The translations under genes were made by a program, and so were the position numbers. DNA of 64,000 bases. Source: Oscillospiraceae bacterium (GTDB lineage Bacteria; Bacillota; Clostridia; Oscillospirales; Oscillospiraceae). Shown here piece by piece: positions 3,045 through 6,698 of this stretch. Position 1 is the stretch's first letter, and the number at the start of each line of letters is the position of its first letter. Location: positions 1 to 64,000 of the forward strand of contig SVLJ01000001.1 of assembly GCA_015067995.1 (NCBI GenBank). The letters run 5' to 3'. Below the pieces are notes generated by a model. That model saw only the letters and a list, made by a program, of their open reading frames with translations, was not told the origin of the DNA and ran no database searches.

Positions 3045-4520
3045 TCAGCCTTTCCACTCAACGTACACGGTGCGAACCTCGCCGGAAGCAGCGGGGGCTG
3101 CAGCGGGAGCAGCGGGCTTTGCAGGAGCGGGAGCGGCTGCAGGAGCCGGCTGGCGCTTCTCGGGATGATCCCGGTAATCCAGGAACTTGGGAGCCACCTG
3201 GGGGAACAGAGCCAGGCTCAGGACGTCCTCGTCGGACTTTGCGATGTCCTTGAACTCCTCACGGTACTTGGGCAGTTCGGGCTCCAGCAGGTCGGCGGGA
3301 CGGCAGGTGATCACATCCTCGGGCTTGATGCCGGCCTTGGCGCGAACTTCCTCGTTCACCTTGCCGGGCAGCTGGCCGTACTCGCCCTTCAGCATGGCCT
3401 TGGATTCCTTGGTGAAGGTCTTGTAGCGCTCGCCCAGAACGATGTTCATAACGGCCTGAGTACCAACGATCTGGCTGGAAGGAGTGACCAGAGGAGGATA
3501 GCCATAGTCCTCGCGGACTCTGGGAATCTCGGCCAGCACGTCGTAATAACGGTCTTCCTTGCCAGCCTGCTTCAGCTGGGAAATCAGGTTGGACAGCATG
3601 CCGCCGGGAACCTGATACAGCAGAGTGTTGGTGTCCACGTTCAGGACCTTGGGATCCAGATTGCCCTCGGCCTTCAGCTTCTCAGCGACCTTACGGAAGT
3701 GAACGGCAGCATTGCTCATCTTGCCCAGATCCAGACCGGTGTCACGGGCGCTGCCCTTCAGGGTGGCGACCAGAGCCTCGGTGGCGGGCTGAGCGGTACC
3801 GTTGGCCAGGGGAGACAGAGCGCAGTCCACGATGTCAACGCCTGCATAGGCAGCCATCAGATAGACCATGTCGCCGGTGCCGGTGGTGTTGTGGGTATGC
3901 AGGTGGATGGGGACTTTGACGGTCTCTTTCAGCTTCTTCACCAGGGAATAAGCATCCAGAGGCAGCAGCAGGTTGGCCATATCCTTGATGCAGATGGCGT
4001 CAGCGCCCATCTGCTCCAGCTCAACAGCCATCTTCACGAAGTACTCTTCGCTGTGGATGGGGGAGATGGTATAGGACAGAGTGGCTTCGACTTCGCCGCC
4101 ATACTTTTTGGTGGACTTGATGGCCTGCTCCAGATTGCGGATATCATTGAGAGCATCGAAGATGCGGATGATATCAATGCCGTTCTCAATGGACTTGGCG
4201 CAGAATGCGTCAACTACGTCATCGGCATAGTGCTTGTAACCCAGAATATTCTGGCCGCGGAACAGCATCTGCAGTTTGGTATTGGGCATAGCCTTGCGGA
4301 TGGCACGCAGGCGCTCCCAGGGATCTTCATTCAGGAAACGCATGCAGGAGTCAAAGGTAGCGCCGCCCCAGCACTCCACGGAATAATAACCGATGGAATC
4401 CAGAATCTCACAGGCGGGGATCATATCCTCCAGACGCATGCGGGTAGCAGCCTGGGACTGATGTGCGTCACGCAGAATGGTGTCGGTGATCAGCAGAGGT
4501 TTATTGCTTAAGAATTCCAT
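3045..4520 (-). CDS. oadA: Carboxyltransferase (alpha) subunit, oxaloacetate decarboxylase / pyruvate carboxylase subunit B type
   Basis: 'ITDTILRDAHQSQAATRMRLEDMIPACEILDSIGYYSVECWGGATFDSCMRFLNEDPWERLR...LFRGQNILGYKHY' signature; the C-terminus stops after a P/A linker without a biotinyl domain. Confidence 0.93.
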   Translation of the reverse strand: MEFLSNKPLLITDTILRDAHQSQAATRMRLEDMIPACEILDSIGYYSVECWGGATFDSCMRFLNEDPWERLRAIRKAMPNTKLQMLFRGQNILGYKHYADDVVDAFCAKSIENGIDIIRIFDALNDIRNLEQAIKSTKKYGGEVEATLSYTISPIHSEEYFVKMAVELEQMGADAICIKDMANLLLPLDAYSLVKKLKETVKVPIHLHTHNTTGTGDMVYLMAAYAGVDIVDCALSPLANGTAQPATEALVATLKGSARDTGLDLGKMSNAAVHFRKVAEKLKAEGNLDPKVLNVDTNTLLYQVPGGMLSNLISQLKQAGKEDRYYDVLAEIPRVREDYGYPPLVTPSSQIVGTQAVMNIVLGERYKTFTKESKAMLKGEYGQLPGKVNEEVRAKAGIKPEDVITCRPADLLEPELPKYREEFKDIAKSDEDVLSLALFPQVAPKFLDYRDHPEKRQPAPAAAPAPAKPAAPAAAPAASGEVRTVYVEWKG

Positions 4521-4624: not shown

Positions 4625-4993
4625 TTACTGGATGGTGCACAGAGTGGCGCCGGCCTCAACAGCGGCACCCTTGGTAACGTTGATACCGGTAACGACGCCG
4701 TCCTTGGGAGCAACGATATCGTTCTCCATCTTCATGGCTTCCAGAACCAGCAGAACCTGACCAGCGCTGACCTTATCGCCAACGTTGACCTTGATGTTCA
4801 GCACGGTGCCAGGCAGGGGAGAAGCAACAGGCTCGCCGGCGGCAGCTGCGGGAGCGGGGGCGGCAACAGGAGCGGGAGCGGCGACAGGGGCGGGGGCAGC
4901 AACGGGAGCGGCTGCGACGGGAGCAGCGCCGGTCATCTCTTCCAGTTCGATCTCATAGGCGATGCCGTTGACGATAACCTTGTACTTTTTCAT
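4625..4993 (-). CDS. Biotinyl (acyl carrier) subunit of a decarboxylase
   Basis: Ala/Pro linker followed by the 'VLEAMKMENDIVAPKDGVV' biotinylation motif; MKKYKV start chosen. Confidence 0.93.
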   Translation of the reverse strand: MKKYKVIVNGIAYEIELEEMTGAAPVAAAPVAAPAPVAAPAPVAAPAPAAAAGEPVASPLPGTVLNIKVNVGDKVSAGQVLLVLEAMKMENDIVAPKDGVVTGINVTKGAAVEAGATLCTIQ

Positions 4994-5029
4994 GTGCGTA
5001 ATCTCCTTACACAAAAATTAATTGGATGA

Positions 5030-5782
5030 TCAGATTTGCTTGATAGAATGGATGCGGATACTGTTGACATGAGTACCAAGCAGCTCTGCCAGTGCGGCAG
5101 AGATGGCGGCCATCATGTCAGGACGGACGGGCGCGGGAACGCCGACGCCGGACAGCTGTCTGATGGAATGAATACGGATGTTGCTCACATGCGTACCCAA
5201 GTTTTCGGCCAGTGCGGCGGAAACAGCAGCAACCATACTGGGCTGTACAGGTGCTGCCATCTGGACGCTCTGCCCGGACAACTGTCTGATGGAGTGGATG
5301 CGAATGTTGGTAACATGAGTGCCCAGAGCCTCAGCCAGTGCAGCGGAAACAGCAGCCACAGTCTCAGGCAGTACGGGGGTGGCGACAGGCACGCTGACAG
5401 CGGCCTCTGCACCGGATAACTGCCGGATGGAGTGGATGCGAATGCTGCTGACCTGAGTGCCCAGAGCTTCCGCCAACGCAGCGGAAATGGCAGCTACGGT
5501 CTCGGGGCGGACCGGTGCGGCAGGTGCAGCTGTGGGAATGGCGGCAGGTGCGGCCACGGGGGTGGCGGCGGGTGCAGCCGAAGGCACGGCGGCAGGTGCG
5601 TAAGCAACCGGTGCAGCGGGAACAGGAACTGCCTCAGGAGCGGGGGCGGAGGTAGGGACTGGGGTCACGGGCGCTGCAGGAGTCGATGATGTATCTGCAG
5701 TCGTTTGCCGTCGATTCTTCAGCAAGAGATAGCAGACCAAAACGGCCATCACAATGCCCACAACCAGAATGGGACTATCCAT
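5030..5782 (-). CDS. Na+-pump decarboxylase delta/gamma-subunit-like membrane protein with four tandem C-terminal repeats
   Basis: N-terminal TM (MDSPILVVGIVMAVLVCYLLLK), A/P-rich linker, then four copies of '[RQL]P.xxAA[IV]SAALAExLGTxVxxIRIHSI[RK]Q[LI]'. Confidence 0.75.
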   Translation of the reverse strand: MDSPILVVGIVMAVLVCYLLLKNRRQTTADTSSTPAAPVTPVPTSAPAPEAVPVPAAPVAYAPAAVPSAAPAATPVAAPAAIPTAAPAAPVRPETVAAISAALAEALGTQVSSIRIHSIRQLSGAEAAVSVPVATPVLPETVAAVSAALAEALGTHVTNIRIHSIRQLSGQSVQMAAPVQPSMVAAVSAALAENLGTHVSNIRIHSIRQLSGVGVPAPVRPDMMAAISAALAELLGTHVNSIRIHSIKQI

Positions 5783-6014: not shown

Positions 6015-6698
6015 ATGCGATATAATCAGGTGCTTCCTGCAACTTTTCTTGCAAGACCCAATCGTTTTGTGGCAGAAGTGCTACTTCCTGATGGGAAACA
6101 AATTGTCTGTCACGTCAAAAACACAGGAAGATGCCGGGAACTGCTGATCCCCGGAGTGCGCGTTTGGCTGGAAAGATCTGAGAATCCTGCCAGAAAAACC
6201 GCATATGATCTCATTGCTGTGGAGAAGGGAACACGCTTAATCAACATGGATGCCCAGGCACCCAATCGCGTATTTCGTGAATGGGCGGAATCCTGTGGTG
6301 TGTTCGGACGAGACGTGTCTGTCAGACCAGAGTACCGATATGGAGAATCCAGACTGGATTTTTGCCTGACAACGGAGAATGGCCTGCATCTGATAGAGGT
6401 GAAAGGCGTTACATTGGAGGATCATGGTCATGCGAGATTTCCCGATGCACCCACAGAACGCGGCGTCCGCCATATCCGGGAATTGCAGCGGGCTGTGGAA
6501 AACGGTATTGACGCAACATTGTTCTTCGTGATACAAATGGAGAATATCCAGTCATTACGTCCCAACGATGAGACGCATCCGGCGTTTGGAGCAGCTATGA
6601 GGGAGGCTGCGGCAGCCGGTGTACGTATGATGGCTTGGGACTGCACGACAGCACCGGATATGCTGACGATTTGCCGTCAGGTGCCGGTGGTATTGTGA
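6015..6698 (+). CDS. sfsA: Sugar fermentation stimulation protein SfsA family
   Basis: 'FLARPNRFVAEVLLPDGKQIVCHVKNTGRCRELLIPGVRVWLE' and 'HLIEVKGVTLEDHGHARFPDAPTERGVRHIRELQ'. Confidence 0.95.
   Translation: MRYNQVLPATFLARPNRFVAEVLLPDGKQIVCHVKNTGRCRELLIPGVRVWLERSENPARKTAYDLIAVEKGTRLINMDAQAPNRVFREWAESCGVFGRDVSVRPEYRYGESRLDFCLTTENGLHLIEVKGVTLEDHGHARFPDAPTERGVRHIRELQRAVENGIDATLFFVIQMENIQSLRPNDETHPAFGAAMREAAAAGVRMMAWDCTTAPDMLTICRQVPVVL

Follow-up and report, generated by a model that had tools for sequence, protein, structure and literature searches.

Four tandem docking units on one gamma/delta-type scaffold subunit of a putative biotin-dependent decarboxylase

A gene at 5030-5782 of the window (the whole 64,000-nucleotide stretch of DNA analysed here, from a gut bacterium of the Oscillospiraceae, in which the scaffold, carrier and carboxyltransferase features described below all lie on the reverse (-) strand) encodes a 250-aa gamma/delta-type scaffold subunit with four docking units, and stands first in an operon that continues with a biotin carrier and a 5S/OadA-type carboxyltransferase. 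On balance, we favor a model where the product is a multivalent gamma/delta-type scaffold of a biotin-dependent decarboxylase, its docking module amplified to four, probably paired with a beta subunit encoded outside the operon. Each module would be the nucleus of a small domain shared with two partner peptides, the hairpin at the carrier N-terminus and the conserved tail that closes the transferase; a single membrane anchor would hold several transferase/carrier sets if all four modules are bound simultaneously, and the complex would operate with a distinct beta encoded elsewhere in the same genome (G000:C23:43104-44141). Judging from the transferase family, the decarboxylase substrate is probably of the oxaloacetate type.

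The scaffold gene and its four docking units

The scaffold open reading frame is intact and an AGGAGGG ribosome-binding site lies closely 5' of its ATG. The protein starts with a predicted single membrane anchor (aa 3-21, positions 5720-5776, SPILVVGIVMAVLVCYLLL, then KNRR), and its description as a membrane protein in an earlier note made from the DNA letters rests on this single hydrophobic stretch, which spans about 19 aa and averages 2.69 on the Kyte-Doolittle scale. In the translation, an Ala/Pro/Val-rich linker follows (aa 27-91, positions 5510-5704), containing a low-complexity 24-bp repeat at 5517-5599; this interval and 4851-4911, both reported as short tandem repeats by Tandem Repeats Finder, correspond to the Ala/Pro-linker codons of the scaffold and of the carrier, respectively. 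The remainder of the chain comprises docking unit 1 (aa 92-124, 5411-5509), unit 2 (aa 138-170, 5273-5371), unit 3 (aa 180-212, 5147-5245) and unit 4 (aa 220-250, 5033-5125), with intervening linkers of 13, 9 and 7 aa between units 1-2, 2-3 and 3-4. Both the four tandem units and linkers of 7-13 aa had been claimed in the earlier note, and the array was also detected independently by Tandem Repeats Finder (period 126, score 317). The same note had assigned the units to the C-terminal docking motif of Na+-pump decarboxylase gamma and delta subunits, an assignment borne out by comparison with 99 units from 87 proteins: the invariant or near-invariant residues defined from this set (A5, A6, S8, A9, A10, A12, E13, G16, R23, I24 and S26) are kept in 4/4 units, so that the scaffold holds four copies of an OAD_gamma-type motif.

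The units had further been called near-identical, which is apt for the protein (68-85% aa identity among the four) and not for the DNA (65-81% nt identity). Unit pairs feature pS values of 0.51-0.84 against pN values of 0.07-0.20, with dN/dS at about 0.09 where computable, and such near-saturation of synonymous sites combined with low protein change indicates that the units are old and constrained. The DNA divergence also excludes duplication or collapse during assembly, as an artefact of this kind would leave near-identical DNA. An assembly or gene-prediction error is thus scarcely credible, despite the draft state of the assembly (40 contigs, 91.6% complete): the copies are 19-35% divergent in DNA, the reading frame is intact and preceded by a ribosome-binding site, and the gene neighborhood is conserved. 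We conclude that the four-unit array is real, old and constrained.

In profile searches the scaffold gave no match at E<=1 to either PF04277 (OAD_gamma) or TIGR01195 (oadG), while relatives with a canonical anchor, be they single- or two-unit, match PF04277 above the cut-off. The match is lost because the membrane segment, which is the beta-binding part, differs: a GxGTVFFGLICLI pattern typical of beta-keeping operons is missing from the scaffold anchor. The scaffold is therefore a real, if unusual, member of the gamma/delta group that goes unmatched by the formal OAD_gamma profile through its anchor, and it is reasonably likely to work like a gamma subunit with extra docking sites. Among solved structures no convincing relative of the scaffold was found.

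Operon partners of the scaffold

The biotin carrier protein (4625-4993; PF00364, E=4.7e-21) carries an EAMKM biotin site and starts at an ATG at 4993, the ORF finder beginning at a TTG at 5014. Its N-terminal beta-hairpin (4934-4993, MKKYKVIVNGIAYEIELEEM) is conserved in relatives, is modeled as a hairpin by AF2 and is our proposed partner of the docking unit. The carboxyltransferase (3045-4520, 491 aa) features both an HMGL-like domain (E=3e-17) and a PYC_OADA domain (E=7.8e-52), and scores 704.7 bits against PRK09282. It falls just under the OadA cut-off of PRK12331 (703.5 vs 718 bits) and below that of TIGR01108 (658.8 vs 756.5 bits). Its C-terminal tail (3048-3086, SGEVRTVYVEWKG), set behind an Ala/Pro linker, is proposed as a second partner; a tail of VR.L.VE form on a flexible linker ends nearly all transferases of the relatives.

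Together, carrier and transferase align along OadA, with carrier aa 7-125 corresponding to oadA 471-582 and transferase aa 11-475 to oadA 1-465. In this split enzyme it is thus the N-terminus of the carrier that corresponds to the OadA segment bound by gamma, and the carrier hairpin appears no less likely than the transferase to be what the docking units bind. The earlier suggestion of a scaffold for several carboxyltransferase or biotin subunits is still the most economical reading of the array, and the statement in the earlier note that the motif docks the carboxyltransferase needs to be widened accordingly to the carrier.

We also considered the operon as a pyruvate carboxylase and rejected this assignment, as no biotin carboxylase C-domain (PF02785, Biotin_carb_C) was found across the G000 assembly of the window's genome, rated 91.6% complete. 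There is no sign of an acetyl-CoA or pyruvate carboxylase in this assembly, and such genes may sit in its missing part.

Predicted structure of the docking unit

For structure prediction with AF2, unit 4 and the carrier, without the transferase tail, were joined in one chain by reading through the stop codons between the two genes, a device to connect two neighboring products that makes no claim about the organism. This single-chain proxy was modeled with moderate confidence as helix, strand and hairpin, in a block with pLDDT of about 72-83, and the 74-aa docking part alone gave a pTM of 0.52 and a mean pLDDT of 69.6. Each unit is predicted to consist of an Ala-rich helix and then a strand. 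Foldseek returned no match in the PDB for the 74-aa docking part at E<=0.001, and the matches of the longer construct are headed by the biotinyl domain; neither result speaks for or against a BT/PT-like fold.

A precedent for such an arrangement is provided by MfPC, in which the sheets of two CT-BCCP subunits wrap a single Ala-rich C-terminal helix and an A465R substitution abolishes the holoenzyme (PMC5059739). Taken together, the OadA-aligned N-terminus of the carrier, the conserved transferase tail and, by analogy, the MfPC helix core suggest that a hairpin from the carrier and a tail from the transferase come together on each unit. In oxaloacetate decarboxylase (OAD), deletion of the gamma C-tail severely reduces copurification of alpha (PMC7274780), and the tail is reported to bind alpha in a 1:2 molar ratio and to promote alpha tetramers (Balsera 2011, as summarized in PMC7274780).

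How many sets could be bound at once may be limited by the linkers: with 7-13 aa between units there may not be room for four bulky sets simultaneously, which weighs against multivalency. An alternative that we regard as possible, though improbable, is that one or at most two sets are held at any moment and the additional units increase local affinity or act as spares, ordinary stoichiometry being kept. The shortness of the linkers is consistent with this, as are the 1:2 gamma-tail:alpha ratio reported, in the part of the work summarized in PMC7274780, for a single-unit enzyme, and the sufficiency of one unit in two relatives, G015 and G016; conservation of the key residues in 4/4 units at a dN/dS of about 0.09 argues in the other direction, decay being expected of spare copies.

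Missing beta gene, changed anchor and unlinked beta

The usual gene order in relatives is scaffold, carrier, beta, transferase. In most relatives the beta gene, for the membrane decarboxylase, lies between those for carrier and transferase; the window operon lacks it, an absence that the earlier note did not mention. Beta-less operons are also found in G015, G016 (where the operon is split across two contigs) and G241, each with a single-unit scaffold, so that beta loss and unit multiplication are separable. G338 features a carrier-transferase pair beside sfsA with neither beta nor scaffold, and a three-unit scaffold at another locus; in the window sfsA (6015-6698) is likewise a neighbor, divergent from the operon.

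The GxGTVFFGLICLI-type anchor sequence is missing in 5/5 of these genomes (the window's own, G015, G016, G241 and G338), and a distinct beta lineage is carried by the same 5/5. This lineage is deeply separate from operon beta, as judged from a tree for the window's genome, G015 and G016 and from similarity scores for G241 and G338. In the window's genome, which has two full OAD_beta genes, one in a Gcd operon and one unlinked, the distinct copy is the unlinked gene on contig C23, beside aspS as in G016; in G338 it is the only beta. Within the genus, at least eight genomes carry the distinct lineage, including 3/3 beta-less ones, and a simple exact test by hand of the beta-less state against the distinct beta gives p ~0.0005, a value that overstates the evidence because G015 and G016 are sisters.

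As the gamma membrane helix of OAD makes extensive contacts with beta (PMC7274780), the loss of the operon beta together with an anchor lacking the usual beta-binding sequence points to the unlinked beta as partner, with which the scaffold complex is probably paired. The distinct beta is also present where the operon beta is kept (G014, G031, G001, G029 and G030), and may consequently have another partner. The absence of beta from the operon and of its binding sequence from the anchor could instead place the operon outside the Na+ pumps, as a membrane-tethered carboxyl-transfer or decarboxylase complex without any beta, which the lack of a detectable biotin carboxylase would separate from pyruvate carboxylase; we consider this unlikely, given the distinct beta lineage in 5/5 changed-anchor genomes and the fact that carboxybiotin would have no obvious outlet with neither beta nor another acceptor.

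There is also a stronger proposal that we advance tentatively and would not ourselves bet on: the four-unit anchor would hold at least four transferase/carrier sets and feed carboxybiotin to a beta pump that is encoded apart from the operon and has evolved separately, valency and pump identity having been re-matched in several gut lineages.

Copy number among relatives

The genus set comprises 86 genomes, of which 56 match, and 30 loci were read (29 relatives and the window's own). One unit is present at 28/30 loci, in line with the earlier claim that a single copy is the norm; the exceptions are G031 (Dysosmobacter sp. SUG973), with two, and the window, with four. Loci named Dysosmobacter and Oscillibacter group within one clade in this set. 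A scan of species genomes revealed eight two-unit proteins in other Clostridia (L035, Dysosmobacter sp. SUG973; L036; L037; L038, E. aggregans; L039; L040, Eubacterium barkeri; L041; and L096), and a two-unit profile run against 401 genomes of the family and 392 of the class matched only the window's genome, G338 and G740 (an E. aggregans locus). G338, from the same family as the window, encodes the sole three-unit protein found, and its best unit pairs are 91-93% identical in DNA, which indicates recent multiplication. The count of copies in relatives, proposed in the earlier note as a check, is therefore variable, at 1, 2, 3 or 4. Four units occur in the window's genome alone among the genomes searched, and on the carboxyltransferase tree the multi-unit copy state has changed at least five times: the two-unit state is recurrent yet rare, and the four-unit state was seen once. 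No description of tandem OadG units was found within the limited literature searched.

The transferase of the window is sister to that of two-unit G031 (support 99/97, identity 90%), suggesting that the four-unit scaffold may have grown out of a two-unit one. By protein identity in a nearest-unit comparison, the closest outside match of unit 4 lies in the two-unit protein of G031. A candidate covariation between Asp18 of the unit and the threonine of the carrier NGT, found in the window and G031, was absent in L096 and was dropped.

The prevalence of even counts (2 and 4) among multi-unit proteins would fit units that pair mutually, helix-strand with helix-strand, into a rigid rod or an oligomer of anchors rather than offering separate docking sites. 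We give this little credence, as a three-unit protein exists, single-unit relatives are the rule, and conserved partner peptides persist on both carrier and transferase.

A further parallel comes from loci L167-L170 and L127: the sister genus (g86) has an additional, stand-alone gamma gene close to liv-type transporter genes, and in G338 the gene for three near-identical units has a similar setting, with liv-type genes coming after it.

Relation to known systems

OadG (OAD_gamma; PF04277, TIGR01195), the gamma subunit of the Na+-pumping oxaloacetate decarboxylase, has the same N-terminal anchor, Ala/Pro linker and C-terminal unit as the scaffold, whose gene likewise adjoins those for a biotin carrier and an OadA-type transferase. 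The scaffold differs from it by four units instead of one, an anchor too divergent for either profile, and an operon without a beta gene. The two-unit gamma subunits (L035-L041 and L096) share tandem docking units with short linkers, but unlike the window combine them with a canonical anchor and an operon beta (the L041 operon was not readable). GcdD and MmdD, the delta subunits of glutaconyl-CoA and methylmalonyl-CoA decarboxylases, show the same layout and a separate biotin carrier subunit as in the window, but have a single unit. The transferase in these systems is of the crotonase type and not of the 5S type. In MfPC, a short Ala-rich helix forms the core for the sheets of other subunits, as proposed here for the units, but it sits in single copy at the alpha C-terminus, on the biotin carboxylase of a soluble enzyme, and its likeness to the docking units is an analogy (PMC5059739).

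It is unsettled how biotin-dependent Na+ pumps hold their soluble and membrane parts together, and in what numbers: Gcd is reported to contain 4 GcdA, 2 GcdB, GcdC1, GcdC2 and 2 GcdD (PMC7145394), and for OAD a beta-gamma hexamer with variable alpha is reported (PMC7274780). The natural one-, two-, three- and four-unit proteins provide a ready series for stoichiometry tests, and the association of anchor with beta type amounts to a testable pairing rule.

The window's genome also has a Gcd operon of the ordinary kind, located on contig 37 (L110). In addition, a biotin carrier gene that looks intact precedes a 101-aa Gcd-type beta remnant (L109:5701-6411, G000:C23:39700-40410); the pair sits 3' of gyrase and RNase H genes and represents a decayed partial copy of a Gcd operon.
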